Shown here: piece after piece, positions 10,101-24,667 of the stretch
Layout of the letters: each line of letters starts with the position of its first letter
Numbering within the stretch: the stretch's first letter is position 1
DNA from: Succinatimonas sp.
GTDB taxonomy: Bacteria > Pseudomonadota > Gammaproteobacteria > Enterobacterales > Succinivibrionaceae
Direction of reading: 5' to 3'
Assembly (NCBI GenBank): GCA_022779845.1
Contig: JALEXT010000035.1
Span: 1-37,424 of the forward strand
Length of the DNA stretch: 37,424 nucleotides
Translations under genes and position numbers: made by a program
The notes under the pieces: generated by a model
Database searches by the model: none
The model's input: only the letters and a program-made list of their open reading frames with translations
Told to the model about the DNA's origin: nothing

Positions 10101-11327
10101 ATGTTAGAGAAAACCAACAAGCAGTATAAAAAAGTTCTGCTGGCTTATTCAGGAGGTCTTGATACTTCCACCATCGTCCCTTGGCTTAAAGAGAATTTCG
10201 GTTGTGAAGTGATCTGTTTCGTTGCCGACGTCGGTCAGGAACGTGAAGATCTTGAAGGTATCGAAGAAAAAGCCAAGGCTTCAGGCGCTTCCAAGTGCAT
10301 TATCAAGGATTTGCGTGAAGAATTCTGCAATGATTATGTCTTTGAAATGATGAAGACTGGTGCTCTGTACGAAGGTACTTATTTGCTAGGTACCGCCATT
10401 GCCCGTCCTGTCATTGCCAAAGCCATGGTTGAAGCTGCTTTGGAAGAAGGAGCTGATGCCATCTCTCACGGAGCTACCGGTAAAGGCAATGATCAGGTGC
10501 GTTTTGAAAGCGCTGTTGCCGCTTTGGCTCCTCAGCTCGATGTGATCGCTCCTTGGCGCATTTGGAATTTGCAGTCTCGTGAAGAATTGTTGGCTTATCT
10601 TGCTGAACGTCACATTCCTTGCAAAGCTTCTTTGAAGAAGATTTACAGCCGCGATGCCAACTGCCTGCACATTTCCACCGAAGGCGGTGAACTTGAGCAT
10701 ACTTGGAATCCCGCTTCTGAGAATGTCTGGGTTTGGACTACTGATCCTGAAAAAGCTCCCGATACTCCTGAGACTCATGAACTTGAGATCAAGGAAGGTA
10801 AGGTTGTCGCCGTTGACGGCAAAGCTCTCTCCGCTTTCCAGGTTTTGGATCTGCTCAACCAATACGGTGCCCGCAACGGAGTGGGTCGTATCGACATTAC
10901 CGAGAACCGTCTGGTCGGCATGAAATCACGCGGTTGCTATGAAACTCCGGGCGGTACCATCATTTATGCAGCTTTGCGCGCTATCGAACAGCTGGTCCTC
11001 GACAAGTCCACTTTCGAGTATCGTGAGAAGCTGGCCGTTGATTTTTCACAGCTTGTGTATGACGGACGCTGGTTCACCCGTCTGCGTGAGATCCTTCAGG
11101 CTGCAGCTGATGAAATCGCCAAAGATGTCAACGGTAAGGTAGTGGTCAAACTCTATAAGGGCAATGTTTCCGTGATCCAGAAGGACTCTCCGAACAGCCT
11201 CTTTAACTTTGATTTCGTGACTTTCGGTGCTGATCACGTTTACAGCCAGCATGACGCAGAAGGCTTCATCCGTCTGTATTCTTTGCCGGCACGTATCCGT
11301 GCAATCAATGCCGCTTCTAAAAAATAA
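10101..11327 (+). CDS. argG: Argininosuccinate synthase
   Basis: [12 protein letters not shown]-loop, [15 protein letters not shown] motif. Confidence 0.97.
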
Positions 11328-11368
11328 TTTAGAAGTGTAGATTTCTCAGATTAAAAATAAGATCAACA

Positions 11369-11403
11369 AAAAGGGGAAACGAATTGATTTTCGTTTCCCT
11401 TTC
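11369..11403 (+). terminator. Terminator-like hairpin after argG
   Basis: AAAGGGGAAACGAA-ttgatt-TTCGTTTCCCTTT, one bulged G; short T-tract. Confidence 0.7.
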
Positions 11404-11439
11404 GCGTGTTTAGAGAGCGGAGGATGATAACGTGATATG

Positions 11440-11478
11440 AATGCTATTAGCATTATTTCTTTTGCGATAAAATTATCG
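11440..11478. promoter_or_regulatory. Two palindromes upstream of the cellulose cluster
   Basis: AATGCTA-T-TAGCATT (11440-11454) and CGATAA-AA-TTATCG (11465-11478). Confidence 0.4.
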
Positions 11479-11524
11479 GATTGATCTTCTTTAAAGCCGT
11501 TACGCATATTTTCTGGAGAAAGGC

Positions 11525-12088
11525 ATGCCTGATAAAGTAGAGCACCTTGGTGAGGATAAGTTTGTCAGAGCTTATGCGGACGAAGGCGTAAGTTTTAGAA
11601 ATTTTGAACAGAAAGTTTTAAAAGAAGCTGACTGCCGCAATTCAGGATTTGCTTTGGTACGGCAGATGGCCGGACAAAAAGAAACGCTGATAAATCAAAG
11701 TGAATTAGGGCAAAGTCCTGCTATTAAAAATCGTAATTCCGTGATGGAACTTATTCACGGCAACGACAAAAGATCAAAGGAAAGAGAAGAATCTGTGCAT
11801 GTTTTGCAAAGCTCAGGTAATCTGCCGCGGCGGCGTAGTAGCCTCAAGGCTTTTTTAACACAGCACTCTGTCATTGCTGAACAGGAGCCGATCGTAAAAG
11901 AGAGAGCTACTTCCCTGTCCGTACGAGGAGCAGGAGATAGCCCTGAAAAAAGTACAGACGATAAAGTAATTTCCAAAACAAGTTATGCAAAAACTTTGTT
12001 CAGTTCTTCGCACGATGGAAATTATGCGACTGCAAATCAGGATGAACCGTTGCAGGACATTTACAAGAGATTGATGAAATGCCAGTAA
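11525..12088 (+). CDS. Uncharacterised predicted-disordered protein at the head of the bcs cluster (BcsO/BcsP/BcsH-type accessory candidate)
   Basis: RBS GGAGAAAGG, overlaps bcsQ by 10 bp. Polar, low-complexity, with recurring short motifs SVMELIHG, SLKAFLTQ and PLQDIYKR. Confidence 0.65.
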   Translation: MPDKVEHLGEDKFVRAYADEGVSFRNFEQKVLKEADCRNSGFALVRQMAGQKETLINQSELGQSPAIKNRNSVMELIHGNDKRSKEREESVHVLQSSGNLPRRRSSLKAFLTQHSVIAEQEPIVKERATSLSVRGAGDSPEKSTDDKVISKTSYAKTLFSSSHDGNYATANQDEPLQDIYKRLMKCQ

Positions 12089-12867
12089 TAAGTATCTGTT
12101 CTCCCAAAGGCGGAGTAGGAAAAACCACATTAGCGGCTAATTTGGCTTATGTTTTTTCACGCTCCGGTACCAGAGTTGCCGTGGTGGATTTTGATCCGCA
12201 AAATTCTTTGAGATTGTACTTCGGCCTGTCTTTGTCAGATGATCGTGGTTTCGTAACCATGCCGCAAAAAGATTGGGCTTCTGCCTGTGTCAATGTGGAT
12301 AAAAACCTTTTTGTGCTTCCTTTTGGTAAATCTACTAAAGAACAGCGGATGTTACTTGATGAGGCAATGGCTCAGGATAATTATTTTAAAACGGTACAGG
12401 GATCTTTATTTTCCAATAAAGATTTACTGGTAATTGCTGATTTTGCTCCAGGGTATTCTCAGGCTTTGGAATCGGTTTCAAAAGTTTCAGATATGCAAAT
12501 TGTGCCTTTGCTTGCCGATGCGGCTTCGGTGTCACTGTTTTCGCAATTACTTGCAGGAGGTCTGATGGACGGAGTGATCAACGGAGGTCACGGATATCAC
12601 ATCGTCATCAATCAGGCAGATAACCGCATCAAGCTCAATCGGGAAATTCAAAGCTTTGCCGAGCAAAATTTCAAAGACAACCTTTTGGGAACCGTTCATC
12701 GTGATACTTCGGTAAGTGAAGCTGCTGCTCAGCAGATCCCAGTTTGCGATTACAACAAGAATTCGGCTGCGGCTTTTGATATTGATGTTATTGCCAAGAA
12801 AACCGCCGCAATCCTAGGCTTTGATGTTAAGCAAGGCACAATGATCATCAACCCTCTGCGTCATTGA
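12079..12867 (+). CDS. bcsQ: Cellulose biosynthesis ParA/MinD-like ATPase BcsQ
   Basis: KGGVGKTTLAANLA Walker A motif, VVDFDPQNSLRLYFG; directly upstream of bcsA. Confidence 0.9.
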   Translation: MPVISICSPKGGVGKTTLAANLAYVFSRSGTRVAVVDFDPQNSLRLYFGLSLSDDRGFVTMPQKDWASACVNVDKNLFVLPFGKSTKEQRMLLDEAMAQDNYFKTVQGSLFSNKDLLVIADFAPGYSQALESVSKVSDMQIVPLLADAASVSLFSQLLAGGLMDGVINGGHGYHIVINQADNRIKLNREIQSFAEQNFKDNLLGTVHRDTSVSEAAAQQIPVCDYNKNSAAAFDIDVIAKKTAAILGFDVKQGTMIINPLRH

Positions 12868-12882
12868 GCAAAAGGGAATTTT

Positions 12883-15006
12883 ATGAAAAATTCAGTGTTT
12901 GCCGCACTTTTTGTCGTTTGTGTGGTGTTGCCGGTATTGGTTTTGGTGGTTATAGCTCCTATGAACGCGCAAAACCAGTTCATTTTCGGCATGTGTATGG
13001 TTATAGCCTGTCTGATCGCGAATTTTTGTTCTAAGAAACACTTTGTTTCTTTTTGCATGTTGTTGGCGTCGGTCGTATGTTCAACCCGTTACATGTTTTT
13101 CCGTGCGACGCAGACTTTATCATTCCCGTCATGGATAGATACCATTTTTGGCGTTTTGCTCTTCGGTGCTGAAATCTATGTATACGGCGTATTGCTTTTA
13201 AGTTTCTTTCAGCTTTCATGGTCATTAAACCGCAAGATCGTGCCCATGCCTGAAGATGTGAACAAATGGCCTACGGTTGACGTATATATTCCTACTTATA
13301 ACGAATCGTTGGATGTAGTACGCGATACGGTGTTGGCTGCTCAGTGCCTTGAATATCCCAAAGACAAGATAAGAATTTATCTTTTGGATGACGGGCGTCG
13401 TCGTGAGTTTGCGACTTTCGCAACCGAAATCGGGGTAGGTTATATCACGCGCTCTGACAATAAGCATGCCAAGGCAGGAAATCTTAATCATGCAATGACC
13501 CTCACCCACGGTGAGCTCATTGCTATTTTTGACTGTGATCATATTGCAACTAAAATATTTTTACAGTCGACTGTAGGTGCTTTTATTACTGATCCCAAGC
13601 TCGCGCTTATTCAAACCCCCCATCATTTCTATTCACCCGATCCTATCCAGCGCAATCTCTATTTAGGAAGAGATATTCCTCCTGAGAATGCCATGTTCTA
13701 CGGTCCTATTCAGCGCGGTAACGATAATTGGAATGCTACCTTCTTTTGCGGTTCCTGTGCCGTGATCCGCCGCAGTGCGTTAGATGAGATCGGCGGCTTT
13801 GCCGTTGAGACCGTGACTGAAGACGCACATACGGCTTTAAAGTTACAACGCAAAGGATGGAAAACAGCTTTTCTTGACCATATTTTGGCAGGCGGTTTGG
13901 CTACCGAGCGTCTGGTTTTGCATTTGAAACAGCGAAACCGCTGGGCCCGCGGCATGGTGCAGATTTTCAGACTGGATAATCCTTTGTTCGGTAAGGGGCT
14001 GACTTTGGCTCAAAGACTTTGTTACCTTTCTGCCACCAGTTATTTTTTCTTTGCACTTCCCCGTGTGATTTTTATGGTTACTCCGATTTTGTATCTGCTT
14101 TTCGGGATCTCCATTGTGCACGGTTCGGTAAGTCTGCTTTTGGCTTATGCTGTCCCGCATCTTATTCTCTCGGGGTTATCAGGTTCAAGATTGTACGGAC
14201 GCTATCGTTACAGTTTCTGGGGACAGATTTACGATACCGTACTGTCATTTCATCTGGTTTTGCCTACCGTGGCAACTTTGTTTTTCCCTCATCACGGTGA
14301 TTTCAACGTAACTGATAAGGGACAAACGGTTGATAAAGCCTACTTTGATGCGCTGTCGGTACGTCCTCACCTTATAGTTGCGTTTTTGCTGGCTTTTTCC
14401 ATCGTATTCAGCGTAGTTAAGATCTTTTTGCCCAGTTATTTCGAAACTCAGCTCGGCCCCATGTTGCTGAATGTTTTTTGGGCCATGGTAAATCTTTTGC
14501 TACTGATAGCTGCAATTTGCGTAGGACGCGAGACAGCCAACAAACGTAAATTGCAACGTTTGAATGTCGAGCTTCCTATTAATGTCTATCAGCAAAGCGG
14601 AATATGCTCAAGAGCCGTCATGAGGGATATTTCCATGGGCGGCTGTCGTGTGGACAATTTTTCCATAGGAAATGCCGAATTGAATCTGGATGAGGATCCC
14701 ATTACCGATCTTGAGATCCCTACGGGTAATGCAACTGTATGTGTCAATGTGAAACGTATCGTAAGACCTATGCAGGGTGAAGATGAATTTTTAAGATTCA
14801 GTTTTGAAAATGTCGATATAGATACCCGCAGAGAGTTTGTTCGACTTATCTTCTCAAGAGCCGATGCGTGGGTGCGACCTGAATACAAGCAGGATAATCC
14901 GGTGCGTTCTTTCTTTACCGTATTAGCCTGTATTTATGATTCTCTGTTTCCAAAACGAGCTCCGGCCGGTAAAAAACAGGAAGCTGCAGGAGAAAGCCAT
15001 GCTTAA
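12883..15006 (+). CDS. bcsA: Cellulose synthase catalytic subunit (UDP-forming) with PilZ domain
   Basis: GT2 motifs LLDDGRRREF, FDCDH, TEDAHTALKL, QRNRWARG; PilZ RKLQR and DISMGG; multiple TM segments. Confidence 0.97.
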   Translation: MKNSVFAALFVVCVVLPVLVLVVIAPMNAQNQFIFGMCMVIACLIANFCSKKHFVSFCMLLASVVCSTRYMFFRATQTLSFPSWIDTIFGVLLFGAEIYVYGVLLLSFFQLSWSLNRKIVPMPEDVNKWPTVDVYIPTYNESLDVVRDTVLAAQCLEYPKDKIRIYLLDDGRRREFATFATEIGVGYITRSDNKHAKAGNLNHAMTLTHGELIAIFDCDHIATKIFLQSTVGAFITDPKLALIQTPHHFYSPDPIQRNLYLGRDIPPENAMFYGPIQRGNDNWNATFFCGSCAVIRRSALDEIGGFAVETVTEDAHTALKLQRKGWKTAFLDHILAGGLATERLVLHLKQRNRWARGMVQIFRLDNPLFGKGLTLAQRLCYLSATSYFFFALPRVIFMVTPILYLLFGISIVHGSVSLLLAYAVPHLILSGLSGSRLYGRYRYSFWGQIYDTVLSFHLVLPTVATLFFPHHGDFNVTDKGQTVDKAYFDALSVRPHLIVAFLLAFSIVFSVVKIFLPSYFETQLGPMLLNVFWAMVNLLLLIAAICVGRETANKRKLQRLNVELPINVYQQSGICSRAVMRDISMGGCRVDNFSIGNAELNLDEDPITDLEIPTGNATVCVNVKRIVRPMQGEDEFLRFSFENVDIDTRREFVRLIFSRADAWVRPEYKQDNPVRSFFTVLACIYDSLFPKRAPAGKKQEAAGESHA

Positions 15007-17449
15007 TCGCTTTTTTGGATCTTTTGTTAACAAAGTTTTTTTGAGTCTGGCTCTTACCTGTTTTTCTTGCAGCGTCTTTGCCGAGGATTTTGATTACAGA
15101 AATTTGCACAACAATATGTCCAAAGCCACGGATCCTGATGCGCAAAATGCCGCTCCGCATCTTCCGAAGGTGATAGAGGAGATCCTGTTGCAGTCAAGAC
15201 CGCTTGACGACGGACAACCGGCTGTTCAGAACGAGACGAATGCAGCGGATAAAAGCGATGAGATCCTGAGCAAATTAAACACTCATGACGACAGTCTCAA
15301 CGCTTATTCTTCTTCTTATACCTTTGATAAGTTGGGGTTTCGTGACGGCGTAAAAATGGCTGCAGGGCAGGACGAGAGTAATATAGGCTTTACCCTGCCC
15401 ATTGATAAAATGGTAAGTTCGGCAAGGCTTGAAATTTACGTTCAGCAGACTGAAGCCATGGCAGAGCGTCATCCTCACCTTAAGGTAAAGCTTAATGAAC
15501 AGGAGCTGGGAACCATACCTCTGACTTCAAAGGAACTCACAAGCTATGAGCTTACGGTACCTACCGAATATCTGTCTGAAGATAATTCTCTGGTCTTTCA
15601 GGTAGTGGATGATAAGGAATTCAGTTGTCTCATAGACTACAGTGACAAATACCTTATTACAGTGGATCCCAAAAGTCATCTGGATATAGACGGTTACATA
15701 CTGTCGCTTGATCCCAATCTTTCAGTTTTTCCTCTGCCTTTTTTGGACAGTTATGAAAATGACAAGACCACGGTAAATTTTGTTTTGCCGGAGCCTTTGA
15801 CACCTGAAATAGTGCACGGTGCGGTGATGCTGGCGTCATACTTCGGAATAAAAGCTGAATACCGGGGCGTAGGGTTTAATACTTCGCTTGATACCCTGCC
15901 GGTGGGTAATTCAATAATATTCGGACATCCTAAGCAGACCGTTGCCGGCATAGAGCTTCCGGCCAAAGCCGGTGTTTATATGAAAGACAACCCTTTCTAT
16001 AAACCCTATAAAAACGTTTACGTAGTGGCCTCTTCAGATGAAGATTTCGTCAATGCGATCCTGACGCTTACCGAATCTGAGAAGAATGTGGAAACTAATT
16101 TCCTGCCCATCAAGGCTTATCCTAAGGAAATACATCAACCTTATGATGCTCCTTACTGGATAAGTGCCAATCGTAAAGTATATTTACATGAATTGCTGCG
16201 TAAAGATCAGAGTTTGCTTACTCGCGGTTTTTTTCATGCTCCTTTGGATATAGCATTCCGCTCTGCTCCTGATCTTTATCAGATTTACGGAAGCCCCAGC
16301 GATCTTTTCATATCCTATGAATTTCCTCCTGATTACCTCGACGAAGAAGCCTCAGGTCTTGACGTGAGCATTTCCGGAAATTATCTGGATAAACTTCCGG
16401 TGAATAAGAAAGGCTTGCTTGAAAATCTTTGGCGTCTTTGCGGAGGCAACGGACGCGAAAACGAAAGACATATACCTTTGCAACCTACATATGTATACGG
16501 TGACAACGAGCTACGATTCTTCTTTGATACGAGGCTTAAGCGCGGTACCGCCTGTGATGTGATGCGCGATACCAACATCAAAAGCGTAATAGACGAGAAA
16601 AGTTACATCGATCTTTCCAATTCGGTACATTTTGCGCGCATGCCGAATTTGGCCTTTTTTGTCGGTGCCTCTTTCCCTTTTACCCGTTATGCAGATTTTT
16701 CTCATACGGCCTTGTTGCTCCCTGATCATGCCACGGTGTCGGAACTTGATACGCTTTTTAACTTGATGGCAAGAAGCGGTAATGCCACCGGAACTATGGT
16801 AAGTGCCGATAAGGTGTATTTAGGATCGCAGATCCTGAATGAAAACAAAGAAGTTTTTAAGGGCCTCGATCTTATGGCGGTGGCTACTTTGAAACATCGC
16901 GAATATTTACAGAAGTTATTGGAAGGTTCGTCTTTTGAACTTAACAGCGGAGATCTCAACATTGTTGAGTACGGAATGTTCTCCTTAAAGGGCGGATTGA
17001 TGTCGAGTCTGGAGCGCTTTTTAACCGGAGATTTCCGTTCTGAAAATGCCGATGCCAATCGGTACGTGCGTACTAATTCCGCATGGCGCGGATTCTTATC
17101 GCTTATTTCTCCTTTTGACAGGGAAAACGTTGCAGTTTTGGTTACCGCCACCTCAGATGACGAATTGTCCCGTTTGGGAGACGATCTTGATAATCGCGAA
17201 ATTAATAAGAGTGTGACAGGAGATCTCAGCGTGATCTCAGGACAGGACAAGGTCATGAGTTACAGCGTAGGGGATTATATCTATCAAGGCGAGGTAAGTA
17301 CTGCTTTTAAGGTATTGTTCTTTGCCGGTAAACATGCTGTATGGCTTTGTGTGGTCGGATTCTTTATTTTGGTTATTTTTTCGGTAATCGCATCAAGATG
17401 CCTGCGTAAGCGTGCACAAAAGCGTCTTAGGGTTGCAACGGGCAAATGA
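14999..17449 (+). CDS. bcsB: Periplasmic cellulose synthase subunit BcsB
   Basis: Signal peptide MLNRFFGSFVNKVFLSLALTCFSCSVFA, BcsB-like body, C-terminal TM helix. Start overlaps the bcsA stop by 8 bp. Confidence 0.93.
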   Translation: MLNRFFGSFVNKVFLSLALTCFSCSVFAEDFDYRNLHNNMSKATDPDAQNAAPHLPKVIEEILLQSRPLDDGQPAVQNETNAADKSDEILSKLNTHDDSLNAYSSSYTFDKLGFRDGVKMAAGQDESNIGFTLPIDKMVSSARLEIYVQQTEAMAERHPHLKVKLNEQELGTIPLTSKELTSYELTVPTEYLSEDNSLVFQVVDDKEFSCLIDYSDKYLITVDPKSHLDIDGYILSLDPNLSVFPLPFLDSYENDKTTVNFVLPEPLTPEIVHGAVMLASYFGIKAEYRGVGFNTSLDTLPVGNSIIFGHPKQTVAGIELPAKAGVYMKDNPFYKPYKNVYVVASSDEDFVNAILTLTESEKNVETNFLPIKAYPKEIHQPYDAPYWISANRKVYLHELLRKDQSLLTRGFFHAPLDIAFRSAPDLYQIYGSPSDLFISYEFPPDYLDEEASGLDVSISGNYLDKLPVNKKGLLENLWRLCGGNGRENERHIPLQPTYVYGDNELRFFFDTRLKRGTACDVMRDTNIKSVIDEKSYIDLSNSVHFARMPNLAFFVGASFPFTRYADFSHTALLLPDHATVSELDTLFNLMARSGNATGTMVSADKVYLGSQILNENKEVFKGLDLMAVATLKHREYLQKLLEGSSFELNSGDLNIVEYGMFSLKGGLMSSLERFLTGDFRSENADANRYVRTNSAWRGFLSLISPFDRENVAVLVTATSDDELSRLGDDLDNREINKSVTGDLSVISGQDKVMSYSVGDYIYQGEVSTAFKVLFFAGKHAVWLCVVGFFILVIFSVIASRCLRKRAQKRLRVATGK

Positions 17450-17457
17450 GGTCAAAC

Positions 17458-20400
17458 ATGTCTAAGAAATATTCGATGATAGGATTTGAAAAAACCGTTT
17501 TGGCCTTGGCTGTTGCCTTTTGCTGTCATGGAGCACAGGCTTCCTATGAAGATGATCAAAGGCAATTACAATCTGCCAGAATGGCAATGAGTCAGCCTCA
17601 AAATGAAACGGCATCGGAAACTCAAAATCAAGTACAAAAAGCAGATGCGGTTGTATCTGGAAATAAACAAGTTCAGACAAAAGCGGAGGAGGCCTCAGAC
17701 CGAAACGAAGTGCAGTCGTCTTTTGCCGATAAGATGATGGAGCCTGAACAGACAGTTGAAAATCCTAATAATGTTCAGAACAACACGACATCACTGACGG
17801 CAACGCTGTTGAAACAAGCTTACTTTTGGCACGATAAAAAACTGCATAACAAAGCCATGCAGACTTTAAATCGTCTGCTTATGGCCGATCCTCATCATGA
17901 GGAAGCTTTGTTTTTGATGTCGCTATGGTCTTATGAGAACAATGACGAGGAAACCGGCAATATCTACAGAGATCGTTTGGCACGTTTGGCTCCTAACAGT
18001 GATTATTTGCAGCAATTGGATAATCACCGCGGTATGTCTGATCTTTCAGGAGAACTTTTAAGTCATGCCAGAGCATTATCGTCTTCCGGAAACATAGCAG
18101 GTGCATTGCGCGAATATCAGAAGCTTTTTCCGGGGGCGGTGCCGCCTAAAGCATTGGTGTCTGAGTACTATCTGACAATGTCAGGAGATCCTAATTATTA
18201 TGATCGTGCCAAAAACGGTGTTACTGCTTATATCAGGCAGAATCCGCATGATGTCAATGCACAGATCACTTTGGGAAAAATCTTAAGCTATCGTCAAAGT
18301 ACCATACGTCAGGGTATAGAACTTCTGGATTACTACGCACCAAAATACAAGGAAGCTGATCTTGCCTTAAAGCAGGCTTTGATGTGGTTTTCTCCTTCAG
18401 AGAGTGATCATAAGTATTACCAAAATTATTTAAGTCGTCATCGCGGTGATAATGAAGTCGCGCGGCATTATGACGAGGTGACTTTGGGAAATCTTTCCAA
18501 AGAAGCTTTTGACAAGAGCAAGACCGACAAAGAAGATGCCATTAACGATTTCAAACGTATTCTGAGCAAAGATCCGCGCAATCAGAATGCTCTTGAAGCC
18601 GTGGGTTATCTGTATATGGAGCTTAAGAATTATCTTCAGGCTGCAGAATACCTTAATCAGGCGGCAGCATCAGGCGGGAGCAAGGCTCCGAAACTTAAGC
18701 ATGACGCGTTGCTGTGTCAGGCACGTTTCAATGCCGAGAACGGAAGAGATCAGGTTGCCTTGTCGCAGCTAAATGATCTGTTAAAAGACAGTCCTTATGA
18801 TGCAGATGCTTTGATCTTTAAGGCAGAACTTGCCAGAAAAAACAAACGTTATCCTGAAGCCGAAGAAGCATTGAGAACAGCGCAAAGTGCGGATCCTTCC
18901 AATGTAGGAGTACAGGAGTTACTGTATTACGTTTTAAAGGAAGGCGGGAAGAGTGCAGAAGCTGCGGCGCTTTTGTCCAATATGGATCGTGCTTTGGCAG
19001 AAAAGATCCGTGAAAGCTCCAGAGTACATGTATATGTGGATCCCATCCCCGGGATCAGATCTCATGCAGAAAGTCTTAAAGACGGTCGGGGCAATGCTCA
19101 GGCTTTGGATTACTTGCGTACGCAGTTGCGCTCGCATCCGTCTGCTACCTGGCTGCACTATGATTTGGCTCTGGCAGAGCAACAAAGCGGTGATTTGGCA
19201 GGAGCATATGCGGAGCTTAATTATCTTAACCGGGCAAATGCCAGTGATGAGGATTTGTTTGCTGCTGCTTCACTGCAAATGGAATTTAAAGAGTACGAGC
19301 AGGCTTTGGCATCTTTAAACCGCATAAAATCAGCATCTCCCAAAGTAAGGGAAATGCGTGCAACGCTTAAAACCGATCTGCTTTTTTCCGATGTGGAAAG
19401 TTATATAGCTTCAGGAAACAATGCTGCGGCCTTAAATACTTTAAGAAGTTCCGGATTTAAGACCTCGTCGTTGCAAAAGAGGCAGCTTGGGCACCTCGCT
19501 TATCTTTATCTGCGTGCCGGAGACAAGGACAGAGCTTTGGATCTGGCAAATCTTGCCATGTCGCGACCTGCTTCAGGTAATGAAGGTTTGGCCGATCTTG
19601 CTGATATCATTTCCGTATACAACGGTACCGGAAATTACGAAAAAGCCAGAGCATTGACTGAAAATCAGCGCGTGATTGCCAATTCTTCCGGTGAAGAGCT
19701 CGACAGACTTAAAAACGGTGAAAGCATACGCCAAGCCGACGCATTGCGAGAGAGCAACCGTTCGGCAGATGCTTATGATCTGCTGTTCCCGCTTATTCAG
19801 AAATATCCGGATGATCCTGATCTGCAGATGGCTATGGCCAGACTCTATCAGGACAACGGAATGTACGATGAGGCAGCCTCACTTTACAGTCGCGTGCTGG
19901 CAGTCTCCCCAGAGGATCAGCAGGCTGTTGAAGGTGCGATGAACGCTGCTTTGGGGCGTGAGGATTATCGTGGAGCAGCCGATCTTGGTCAGAGACTGCG
20001 CAATACCGACGATCCGCGTACTTTGACCCTTTTGGCCCGTATCGATGCTAAAAATCATGAATACAAAGAAGCCATAATCAAATTAAAGCGCGCGCGAGGC
20101 CTTTTGGACGGACGTTATGATGATCCTAAACCTCTGCCCATAGGACAAGACGGATATACCGCACAGGAAATTGCTCATATGCCGGGCAATCCTTTTCATA
20201 ATCGCGGTGCCGCTCCTACTAAAGCACAGGCTATCAAAGCGCTGCCGTGGGAAGTTCAAGATACTCAGGGACCCAAAGCTTCACCTTGGGATGCTCAGGC
20301 TGGTGCCAGCTATGCAACTTCGTCTTTAAATGCAGCCGATCGTGCCGAAACATTAAATTCGGTGAACTTCATGTTGCGCGATCTTGAAGATAAAGTCGCG

Positions 20401-21753
20401 ACAACTATGAATGTTGCTTTGGAAGCCAGACAAAAAGACGGAGAAGAAGGCTTTAGCAAGGTATCGGTTGTGGAAGTTCCGCATACCGTAAGTACTCCTG
20501 TATTAGGCGGAGCCAAACTCTCTGTCACGGCTGATCCTGTGAGTATGCATTCTGGGGATGTTGCCTATGACAGCGCCAGTCGTTTCGGCTCTCAGGCACT
20601 GAGCGTCGGTGTTACCAATATGGTCACCAGAGTTCAGGCGCTGCAAAACGCTTATAAAGGCATGAATGCAACCGAATGGGAAAACTATAAAACCAACAAC
20701 GTTTGGCTTAACGCTTTGGATCCCAATGACTTGCAAACTTTATTGACCACTTCTCTAAACGGTGCTGATTTTGCTCTTACTTCGGCACAGGGAAGAGCCA
20801 ATCTCATTAAATATTTCGATCAATTTAGTGATGTCAAACAGGTAATGGCGGCTGTCAATGCCTTAGAACATATTTCAACTGGCATGTATACGGCAAAACC
20901 TGCACGTACCACCGGAGTCGGCTTTGACATAGCTTTAAGCAATGATAATTACAGGTTCGATTTGGGAGCAAGTCCGGTAGGTAAAGACAGCACTACCGTA
21001 ATAGGCGGAGCATCTTATACTTTCGATTTAACCCGCAACAGCTCTTTGAATATTACGGCAGAACGTCGTGCTGTCAAAGATTCGATTTTGAGCTATTACG
21101 GTTATACCGACGAGTATTCTGGAAAATACTGGGGCGGAGTTACCAAAAACGGCGGCAGTCTGACTTATTCTTATGATAACGGTTATTTGGGAAGCACTTT
21201 AAGCGGCTCTTTCTATCGCTACTTGGGAGAAAATGTACGTTCGAATAACAGCGTCGGCGCCGATGCTTCCGTATACGTGCATCCTTTCAAACCAACCATG
21301 TACGAGGACATGACGGTAGGATTATCGCTTTCATATCTTAATTTCCAGCATAATGAAAATAACTTTACCTTAGGCAACGGTGGTTATTTCAGTCCGCAGA
21401 ACTATTTCATCGCATCAATTCCTTTTTCTTACTTAAAACGTACGGAAAATTCGGTATTTAACGCTTCGTTAAACTTAGGTTATCAGTCTTATGAGACGAA
21501 TGAAGAACCTTATTTCCCGCAGCATCCTGATTTACAAAGCGATCTTGATGATCTCGTATCATTAGGCTTCCTAGAAACCTCGCATTATGCACATGGTAAT
21601 GAATCCGGTGTCGGCGGCAGTGCGCATTTAAGTTACGACTATTATCTGACTGACTGGCTAAAAGTCGGAGCAGCCCTGAATTATTCGACATTCGGCGACT
21701 ATAACGAGATGTCCGAAATGATTTATATCAAATCGGTATTGGGAGGGCTTTGA
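17458..21753 (+). CDS. bcsC: Cellulose export protein BcsC (TPR periplasmic scaffold plus outer-membrane barrel)
   Basis: Signal peptide, many TPR-like repeats, C-terminal barrel-like region with BcsC position and order; 1431 aa. Confidence 0.93.
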   Translation: MSKKYSMIGFEKTVLALAVAFCCHGAQASYEDDQRQLQSARMAMSQPQNETASETQNQVQKADAVVSGNKQVQTKAEEASDRNEVQSSFADKMMEPEQTVENPNNVQNNTTSLTATLLKQAYFWHDKKLHNKAMQTLNRLLMADPHHEEALFLMSLWSYENNDEETGNIYRDRLARLAPNSDYLQQLDNHRGMSDLSGELLSHARALSSSGNIAGALREYQKLFPGAVPPKALVSEYYLTMSGDPNYYDRAKNGVTAYIRQNPHDVNAQITLGKILSYRQSTIRQGIELLDYYAPKYKEADLALKQALMWFSPSESDHKYYQNYLSRHRGDNEVARHYDEVTLGNLSKEAFDKSKTDKEDAINDFKRILSKDPRNQNALEAVGYLYMELKNYLQAAEYLNQAAASGGSKAPKLKHDALLCQARFNAENGRDQVALSQLNDLLKDSPYDADALIFKAELARKNKRYPEAEEALRTAQSADPSNVGVQELLYYVLKEGGKSAEAAALLSNMDRALAEKIRESSRVHVYVDPIPGIRSHAESLKDGRGNAQALDYLRTQLRSHPSATWLHYDLALAEQQSGDLAGAYAELNYLNRANASDEDLFAAASLQMEFKEYEQALASLNRIKSASPKVREMRATLKTDLLFSDVESYIASGNNAAALNTLRSSGFKTSSLQKRQLGHLAYLYLRAGDKDRALDLANLAMSRPASGNEGLADLADIISVYNGTGNYEKARALTENQRVIANSSGEELDRLKNGESIRQADALRESNRSADAYDLLFPLIQKYPDDPDLQMAMARLYQDNGMYDEAASLYSRVLAVSPEDQQAVEGAMNAALGREDYRGAADLGQRLRNTDDPRTLTLLARIDAKNHEYKEAIIKLKRARGLLDGRYDDPKPLPIGQDGYTAQEIAHMPGNPFHNRGAAPTKAQAIKALPWEVQDTQGPKASPWDAQAGASYATSSLNAADRAETLNSVNFMLRDLEDKVATTMNVALEARQKDGEEGFSKVSVVEVPHTVSTPVLGGAKLSVTADPVSMHSGDVAYDSASRFGSQALSVGVTNMVTRVQALQNAYKGMNATEWENYKTNNVWLNALDPNDLQTLLTTSLNGADFALTSAQGRANLIKYFDQFSDVKQVMAAVNALEHISTGMYTAKPARTTGVGFDIALSNDNYRFDLGASPVGKDSTTVIGGASYTFDLTRNSSLNITAERRAVKDSILSYYGYTDEYSGKYWGGVTKNGGSLTYSYDNGYLGSTLSGSFYRYLGENVRSNNSVGADASVYVHPFKPTMYEDMTVGLSLSYLNFQHNENNFTLGNGGYFSPQNYFIASIPFSYLKRTENSVFNASLNLGYQSYETNEEPYFPQHPDLQSDLDDLVSLGFLETSHYAHGNESGVGGSAHLSYDYYLTDWLKVGAALNYSTFGDYNEMSEMIYIKSVLGGL

Positions 21754-22199
21754 TGAGCGCTTTTTTCGTATCGGAAAATCAGGGACGCGGAATGCTTGAA
21801 CTTTTGATCCTCATGGTTCAGAAGATGAGTCGTAACGCTTCTGGAGAAGACGTATGCGATTTTCTTTACGATATAGGTGAAGATCTGGCAAAACATTATC
21901 CTTTGGGGCATCCAGAACGACTGGGGGCCTTGCATCTTGAGATGAACGACAGGCTCAAAGCATTGGGGCTTGGGGTATGCGAACTTACGGATTGCGCTCA
22001 GGCACTTAAGATAGTTCATCGTAAAGGACCGGTCTGTAAGGATCCTGAATTTGCCGCCGACTGGCAGCGTTTTTTTGCAGCTTTGCTTTGCGGTTTGTAC
22101 AACATGTGGTTTTACCAAAGCGGAGCTCCTGCGGCTTTGGGATGTAAAGTAGACTCGCAAAACGATGTAACAACGGTGCTTTATTTTAAAAAAAGGTAA
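21753..22199 (+). CDS. bcsD: BcsD-like cellulose synthase subunit
   Basis: About 148 aa; LHLEMNDRLKALGLGVCELTDCAQALKIVHRKGP and FAALLCGLYNMWFYQSGA resemble the BcsD family. TGATG coupling to bcsC. Confidence 0.82.
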   Translation: MSAFFVSENQGRGMLELLILMVQKMSRNASGEDVCDFLYDIGEDLAKHYPLGHPERLGALHLEMNDRLKALGLGVCELTDCAQALKIVHRKGPVCKDPEFAADWQRFFAALLCGLYNMWFYQSGAPAALGCKVDSQNDVTTVLYFKKR

Positions 22200-22207
22200 A
22201 AAACATT

Positions 22208-23227
22208 ATGTTCGGAGTGTTTGAAGCATCGATGCGAAAAATCTTGTCTTTAATCGTATTAAGTACTGCGTTTATCTTTGTGTCTTTCGTGCAGGCTTCA
22301 GCTTGGGATGATTACAAAGCCCGTTTTGTAAGTTCAGACGGTGCAGTTATAGACAGCGGCAATAACGGCATGTCGCATTCTGAAGGACAGGGCTATGCAT
22401 TGATGTTTGCTCTTATGTACGGTGACAAAACAGTGTTTGATAAGGTTTTGTCCTGGAGCGAACACAATTTGCAAGATCCTAAAACCGGTCTTTTTTACTG
22501 GGCTTATCGTCGTGACGGCGGGGATCCGATAGCAGATCATAATAACGCTACCGACGGAGATCTTTTTATAGCTTGGGCTTTGATGAGAGCCGGAGCCAAA
22601 TGGAGGGATCCTGCTTATACCAAAAAAGGTGAAAGGCTGGCTCAAACCATTTCTTCATTGCTTGTTACCAATTTCGGCGGTTTTAAAGTACTGTTACCGG
22701 GATTAAACGGATTTTTGTACAACGACAAGGTATTTTTAAATCCTTCTTACTACATTTATCCGGCTCTTAAGGATTTGGGAACCTTTACTTATATGAAATT
22801 GTGGGGAGAGCTTGCTTCCGATTCAAAAAGTTTGATGAATTTAAATCGGAATTTTACGATACCTTTGTCGCCTGACTGGATAAAACTCATGCCTGACGGC
22901 AGCATTATGACAGCAGAGCAATGGCCGGCACGATCAAGTTATGATGCCATCAGAGTGCCGTTGTATCTTTACTGGGGAGATCCTGCCTCCCCTGAGCTTA
23001 AAACTTGGAAAGATTATTTTGCCCGTTTTTCACCTGACAATACCCCGGCTTGGGTAAACGTTGTCACGGGACAAAGTGCCGAATATGCTATGACCGGCGG
23101 TTTGCGCGCGGTACGAGATTTGATACAAGGCAAATTTTACCAAGAGCCTGAGATCAAGAGCAGTGACGATTACTACAATGCCAGTTTGAAGATGCTTTGT
23201 TATGCGGCATGGTGCGATACTCACTGA
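22208..23227 (+). CDS. bcsZ: Endoglucanase BcsZ (GH8)
   Basis: Signal peptide, SEGQGYALMFALMYGD, NNATDGDLFIAWALMRAG, SSYDAIRVPLYL. Start may be 22232 instead. Confidence 0.93.
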   Translation: MFGVFEASMRKILSLIVLSTAFIFVSFVQASAWDDYKARFVSSDGAVIDSGNNGMSHSEGQGYALMFALMYGDKTVFDKVLSWSEHNLQDPKTGLFYWAYRRDGGDPIADHNNATDGDLFIAWALMRAGAKWRDPAYTKKGERLAQTISSLLVTNFGGFKVLLPGLNGFLYNDKVFLNPSYYIYPALKDLGTFTYMKLWGELASDSKSLMNLNRNFTIPLSPDWIKLMPDGSIMTAEQWPARSSYDAIRVPLYLYWGDPASPELKTWKDYFARFSPDNTPAWVNVVTGQSAEYAMTGGLRAVRDLIQGKFYQEPEIKSSDDYYNASLKMLCYAAWCDTH

Positions 23228-23284
23228 TACTTGGGTACAATAAGCGGGATTTTTAACTATTTTTCAGCATGGAGACAACAGATC

Positions 23285-24667
23285 ATGGCTTTATGGGGCG
23301 GCAGATTTACAGAAGGTCCTGACGAGAGATTCAAAAATTACAATGATTCGCTGAAGTTTGACTATCGCATGGCCCTCGAAGATATCGAAGGCTCCGAGTG
23401 TTGGGCAGATGCAATTCACGAAGCGGGAGTGCTTACTGATCAAGAATGCATCGATCTGAAAAAAGCTCTGACCGAACTTCATGAGGAAGCAGAGAACGAC
23501 ATTCATGCCATAGCCTCTGCAGGAGACGAGGATATCCACTCTTATATCGAACGTCGTCTCATCGAAAAAGTCGGCAATCTCGGAAAAAAATTACATACCG
23601 GCCGCAGCCGTAACGATCAGGTGGCTTTGGATCTGAAACTTTGGTGTCGCAAAGCTGTGGACGGGATTTCCAAAGCACTCGTGCATTTGGAGCGTGAATT
23701 GGTAGCCACGGCAGAACGTTATCAGGGTAAGGTGTTCCCTGGATATACTCATCTGCAGCGAGCCCAACCGGTAACCTTCAGCCATTGGGTATTGGCCTAT
23801 GCTCAGATGTTCGAACGGGACTATCAGCGTTTGCAAAACGCCGCCGAACTTATGTCCACATGTCCTTTGGGATCTGCAGCTTTAGCCGGAACTGCCTATA
23901 AGATCGATCGTGAGAAATTGGCACATGCTCTTGGTTTCAAACATGCCACCGCCAACAGTTTGGACGGAGTTTCCGACAGAGATCACGTTATGGAATTGCT
24001 TTCCTGTGCGTCAATCTCCATGATTCATCTCTCGCGTCTTGCAGAAGATCTAATCATCTACAATTCAGGCGAAGCCCGTTTTGTAACCTTGTCAGATAAA
24101 GTTACTTCCGGTTCATCGTTAATGCCGCAGAAAAAGAATCCTGATTCTTTGGAGCTTATCCGCGGCAAGTGCGGCCGAGTGGTGGGAGCTTTGACCGGCA
24201 TGCTGGTAACTTGCAAAGCTCTGCCGCTTGCCTACGATAAAGATTTGCAGGAAGACAAAGAGCGTCTTTTCGATGCAATCGATACCTGGCATGACAGTCT
24301 TTATATGGCAGCATTGGTTTTTGAAGGTCTGAAGCTTAACGAAGAACGTGCTTTGGATGCGGCCAAGGGCGGATATTCCAATGCTACTGAGCTTGCAGAC
24401 TATTTAGTCTCCAAAGACATCCCCTTCCGTGAAGCTCATTCTATAGTAGGCAAAGTGGTGTTGCATGCCATTTCAGTGCAAAAACCTTTGGAAGAGCTGA
24501 GCGTTGACGAATTCAGACAGTTCTCGGATGTGATCGGTGACGATGTCTATGCGCCTTTGCAGATTGAAAACATTCTGAACAAACGCGATATCAAGGGGGG
24601 TACCGCTCCTGCGCAAAATGCCGTTGAAATAAAAGTATTCAAGGATTTGCTGGCCAAACGAGTCTGA
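23285..24667 (+). CDS. argH: Argininosuccinate lyase
   Basis: [16 protein letters not shown] start, [20 protein letters not shown] signature. ATG at 23285 with GGAG. Confidence 0.97.

Follow-up and report, generated by a model that had tools for sequence, protein, structure and literature searches.

In Escherichia coli, BcsR contacts BcsA through a hairpin plug (residues D21, L25, F29, L31, I34 and Y36) and BcsQ through two C-terminal helices (PMC11470070). The N-terminus of BcsP resembles BcsR and has been modelled likewise, BcsD is recruited by BcsP, and BcsH is proline-rich (PMC11470070). Here we describe P0001, the first gene of a bcs operon, which, judged by sequence comparison, is a fast-evolving gene related to bcsO, and most probably its orthologue, in a type I (BcsD-containing) Succinivibrio operon.

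The window, by which we mean the whole stretch of 37,424 nucleotides analysed, was placed by genome searches in the genus whose named collection members are Succinivibrio. P0001 is a plus-strand ORF (11525–12088) with an ATG start that encodes 187 aa, and its end overlaps the start of bcsQ (ATG at 12079) by exactly 10 bp, giving the overlap ATGCCAGTAA at 12079–12088. The gene order is P0001–bcsQ–A–B–C–D–Z, all on the plus strand, with bcsQ at 12079–12867 (PF06564, E=6.4e-31), bcsA at 12883–15006, bcsB at 14936–17449 (PF03170, E=3.4e-130), bcsC at 17446–21753 (PF05420 and TPR models), bcsD at 21750–22199 (PF03500, E=1.7e-11) and bcsZ, a GH8 endoglucanase, at 22208–23227 (PF01270, E=6.2e-76). 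An earlier sequence-only reading had placed a 187-aa frame, overlapping bcsQ by 10 bp, at the head of the cellulose operon, and both statements were borne out: the end of argG (11327) is followed by an inverted repeat, the operon and then argH.

The operon sits within 10101–24667 between argG (10101–11327) and argH (23231–24667), as if inserted into an arginine cluster, while a relative (L036) has another upstream neighbour, a chemotaxis-receptor-like ORF. The inverted repeat between argG and the operon (11374–11399, GGGAAACGAA...TTCGTTTCCC) is terminator-like on the minus strand, and a search for a sigma-70-like promoter upstream of the P0001 gene found none. The Rfam scan gave no element near the bcs operon and a group II intron match (RF00029, E=3.4e-6) at 69–137, near the left edge of the window. 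bcsD overlaps the end of bcsC, and the ATG directly after its listed TTG start, at 21753, is the likelier start; the nearest solved chain to its product is the BcsD of Enterobacter sp. 638 (8pog, E=4.6e-12). A second BcsQ-family match in the window genome was weak (E=7e-11), like MinD/ParA-type background.

We recovered 16 scaffold ORFs directly upstream of bcsQ in members of the genus, where BcsD was present in 17 of the 19 members searched. The three motifs named by the sequence-only reading, SVMELIHG, SLKAFLTQ and PLQDIYKR, lie at aa 72, 106 and 175 as it had stated, and its exact motif pattern occurred three times in P0001 against 0.05 expected from composition-preserving shuffles. Its suggestion that the motifs be checked in orthologues also turned out in its favour, the order being the same in the closest ones, with 24 occurrences of the pattern over 16 relatives where 1.6 were expected and no more than 6 arose in any of 500 shuffles. 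We call the first two motif A (aa 72–79, 11738–11761), which is kept in close relatives, and motif B (aa 106–113, 11840–11863), and the third, extended by one residue to PLQDIYKRL, box D (aa 175–183, 12047–12073), all on the plus strand. Two more conserved boxes, absent from that reading, were found on the same strand: an N-terminal box, or N-box (aa ~10–51, 11552–11677), with the pattern ...F13...V22.F24..F27...NSGFALVRQMA, and box C, YAKTLFSS or 'YxxLF' (aa 154–161, 11984–12007), of which L158 and F159 are invariant across 16 relatives.

The closest eight relatives share an N-box of the form V-x-F-x-x-F ... NS-x-F-S-L-x-R-x-x-A, motif A as SV-x-E-L-I, motif B as RSSL-x-x-FL, box C as Y/F-x-x-LF-x-S and box D as S-LQDIYKRL, separated by polar, variable linkers; other relatives reach 463 aa through linker growth, and one longer relative (L067) has four copies of the originally described pattern. 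An AlphaFold2 model built with P0001 and 21 relatives gave a mean pLDDT of 60.6, with linker stretches partly below 50 and helices at 6–18, 34–38, 43–58, 72–77 (A), 106–113 (B), 151–159 (C) and 176–186 (D), so that P0001 is predicted to be largely disordered, with helices forming at the conserved boxes. A conserved C-terminal Cys-Gln/Arg was rejected as a protein motif, since the terminal CQ follows from the TGC CAG TAA forced by the overlap with bcsQ and is lost where the genes do not overlap.

Direct searches gave no indication of kinship. Neither P0001 nor its relatives matched a Pfam or NCBIfam model, the PDB contained no match to P0001, and the one weak NCBIfam match, to RNase RNM (E=0.047), was dismissed as noise. 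PF17037 (CBP_BcsO) did not match P0001 or 15 relatives at E≤10 and had no match in the genus by genome search, and PF10945 (BcsR) was likewise not found in P0001 or its relatives; the HMMER comparison with CBP_BcsO that the sequence-only reading had suggested was thus negative when run directly, the kinship being visible at the profile level only. PDB searches with a BcsP and with a BcsO profile returned nothing relevant, the latter meaning that the PDB sequences searched include no solved BcsO or BcsO peptide.

Profile–profile comparison gave a different result. A PF17037 search of the order provided six bcsO loci, all with the gene position and 10-bp bcsQ overlap of P0001, the overlap being identical in every Enterobacterales bcsO locus tested, and their products aligned with P0001 over the N-box, motif B, box C and box D. 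Motif B aligned with BcsO 'GSILDSL', box C with BcsO 'RFGALFRS' (comparable to BcsP 'SILGKLF') and box D with BcsO PLKPLLEKI and BcsP SLQSMFERL. With the full set, hhalign matched BcsO over the whole length with E=3e-8 (Prob 95), and each conserved end matched by itself: the N-terminal 60 aa with E=3.2e-7 (best of 40 column shuffles, 0.032) and the C-terminal 45 aa with E=2.2e-6 (best of 40 column shuffles, 0.049). P0001 shows profile homology to BcsO at both conserved ends, and it overlaps the downstream bcsQ in a bcsD-containing operon. The BcsQ of the window is closest, outside Succinivibrio, to that of Enterobacterales bcsO operons (identity up to 48%), and the genes upstream of those Enterobacterales bcsQ matched PF17037 in 21 of 22 cases and PF10945 (BcsR) in one.

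BcsP gave weaker matches than BcsO. BcsP-type genes were taken from one large-genome family as PF10945 matches adjoining bcsD, and with the wide set hhalign gave E=6e-5 for the N-terminus and 1.8e-4 for the C-terminus. The N-terminal match was obtained with the wider set only and did not reach significance when the close set A3 was used; the C-terminal SILGKLF...SLxxxFxRL box was found with E=1.8e-4 and 8.9e-5 (shuffle minima 0.004 and 0.13, respectively). The plan of BcsR, a short plug and BcsQ-binding helices only, does not describe P0001, which has 187 aa with a linker and C-terminal boxes.

The low pairwise identity to BcsO (10–17%), together with the lack of a direct HMM match, could also be explained if P0001 were a disordered protein particular to this lineage and without kinship to BcsO, having taken the place of bcsO by non-homologous replacement. 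We consider this highly improbable, given that the N- and C-terminal profile matches are independent and in the right order and that the overlap geometry is identical. Because of the profile match, the shared position and overlap, and the kinship of BcsQ, we regard P0001 as a divergent form of BcsO that belongs to a BcsR–BcsP–BcsO superfamily. The suggestion of a possible new family consequently lost its support, as profile–profile comparison and the shared overlap and position assign the protein to the BcsO group. We do not call it a formal member of PF17037, since the Pfam test failed and its linker, with few prolines and polar and charged residues, is not proline-rich as is that of BcsO.

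To evaluate what the N-box might do, we aligned it with E. coli BcsR (YhjR). The box aligned with the hairpin plug of BcsR, BcsP and BcsO (F13, Y17, V22, F24 and F27) and with their W-LL helix (NSGFALVRQMA); the positions aligned to the plug of BcsR are hydrophobic or aromatic in P0001 (F13, Y17, V22 and F24). The key Asp21 of BcsR is not clearly kept in P0001, where G or E stands beside a three-residue insertion, and it is kept in most relatives. On the side of BcsA, the c-di-GMP arginines R696 and R700 and the hinge R792 are kept in the window protein, while R367 is replaced by Lys (E. coli numbering). The residues of P0001 and the kept BcsA partner R792, with R367 as Lys, support a plug role for the N-box, suggesting that it acts like the plug of BcsR or BcsP and may dock on BcsA and BcsQ.

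To evaluate the C-terminal helix, we collected a set of named loci with a BcsQ alignment, spanning gamma-, beta- and alphaproteobacteria, and then sought BcsD in those genomes. Nearly every gene upstream of bcsQ in the named loci ends in [P/S]L-x-x-[V/L/I][F/L/M]-x-x-[L/I]. The strict box D pattern was present in 72 of 82 upstream genes in BcsD-positive genomes and in 3 of 10 in BcsD-negative ones (Fisher, p=2e-4), a test that ignores shared ancestry and uses a pattern defined after part of the sequences had been inspected. In the named, widest-sampled subset (L159–L192), box D was found in 24 of 25 BcsD-positive cases and in none of the six BcsD-negative ones (p about 1e-5 by the same test, with the same disregard of ancestry), the six being Vibrio xiamenensis, Roseicella, Neoroseomonas and three Siccirubricoccus, so that three belong to one genus. 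In a later genome set, six BcsD-positive cases agreed (in one of them the final position carries a conservative substitution), as did the BcsR-type genes of BcsD-negative genomes. Within single BcsD-positive genomes, BcsR-like genes of second bcs clusters likewise had no box D, as seen in five Succinivibrio species and in two Enterobacterales whose genomes contain bcsO as well. The exceptions were a Sodalis without BcsD that keeps box D and the BcsP–BcsQ fusions found in G186, G317 and G884, three BcsD-lacking genomes in which a box-D-like helix adjoining BcsQ is kept.

Two side observations concern these loci. The five Succinivibrio relatives with a second bcs cluster and BcsR-like gene (L057–L061, in G036, G043, G044, G045 and G039) have in that cluster a BcsQ with a degenerate P-loop, for example GINGNVGTSS. 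The loci L074, L076 and L208 encode natural BcsP–BcsQ fusions in BcsD-lacking genomes, and in each the P-loop of BcsQ is directly preceded by a box-D-like helix.

The association suggests that box D may dock BcsD, a proposal for which we judge the case to be about evenly balanced; the scaffold identity of P0001 is considerably more secure. A different partner for box D would be BcsQ itself, which P0001 would then tether at both ends, leaving BcsD to dock on motifs A–C or elsewhere. The BcsD-lacking fusions, which keep SLQSLLGKL, RLSDLLREL and GLQSLLAKL just ahead of the BcsQ P-loop, and the dependence of BcsP expression or stability on BcsQ (PMC11470070) agree with such a tether, but BcsR binds BcsQ without a box D (PMC11470070) and the six BcsD-lacking genomes have bcsQ and an N-box gene without it, making the tether distinctly unlikely. 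The sequence-only reading, for its part, had treated the motifs as equals, and motifs A, B, C and D, with their common S-hydrophobic-x-x-hydrophobic form, could be equivalent multivalent docking sites, one per BcsD subunit. Their enrichment, the helix predicted at each and the four copies in L067 are compatible with this, yet outside Succinivibrio only C and D are well conserved, A being lineage-specific and B weak in BcsO, and we regard equivalence as somewhat unlikely.

Taken together, our results make it probable that P0001 is a divergent bcsO relative whose N-box would plug onto BcsA and BcsQ, whose linker bears helices and whose box D would capture BcsD. In the division of labour that we propose, the N-box would hold the synthase side, the disordered linker of variable length would carry the short amphipathic helices A, B and C, and the C-terminal helix of box D would capture BcsD and so bring it beneath the synthase as a scaffold inside the cell. 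The earlier idea of a multivalent scaffold or tether for BcsQ and/or BcsD fits this in its disordered, multi-motif part, given the conserved motifs, the predicted disorder with helices, the co-occurrence with BcsD and the kinship to BcsO and BcsP; its new-family part does not. More tentatively, and with slightly more doubt than confidence, we suggest that BcsR, BcsP, BcsO and the unnamed alphaproteobacterial genes upstream of bcsQ may all belong to a single superfamily of adaptors with two working ends, where a BcsR-like plug would hold the synthase and a portable C-terminal helix, box D, would be a grip on BcsD, gained or lost with bcsD and multiplied along the Succinivibrio linker. From the comparison of BcsD-positive with BcsD-negative operons, the likely BcsD-binding element would be a C-terminal helix of nine residues, a prediction that concerns a single peptide. 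A formerly 'unknown protein' ties a gut and rumen lineage to the BcsO/BcsP scaffolds, and P0001 shows how such scaffolds escape standard models.

Among the described systems, BcsH/CcpAx of Komagataeibacter/Gluconacetobacter can be likened to the proposed P0001 by description only, as a disordered partner organizing BcsD; P0001 is not proline-rich, unlike the described BcsP and BcsH. BcsR (PF10945, E. coli YhjR) shares with P0001 the hairpin plug and W-LL helix region of the N-box and the position upstream of bcsQ, but it stops after the N-box, with no linker, box C or box D, and belongs to type II operons without bcsD. The betaproteobacterial BcsP has the same two-ended plan as P0001, with a BcsR-like N-terminus, a long variable linker, a bcsD partner and SILGKLF...SLQSMFERL near the C-terminus, although it has a C-terminal extension, a bcsD placed upstream in L070 and the weaker profile match. 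BcsO (PF17037) of Enterobacterales type I operons differs from P0001 in its proline/alanine-rich linker, where that of P0001 is charged and polar and has motif A in addition, and in sequence, its Enterobacterales members being 10–17% identical to P0001, which the Pfam model misses. The two nevertheless share the place directly upstream of bcsQ, the identical 10-bp overlap, a bcsD in the operon, the N-box, an S-I-x-x-x-L motif, an F-x-x-L-F box and a C-terminal L-x-x-L/I-L/Y-x-R/K-I/L box.
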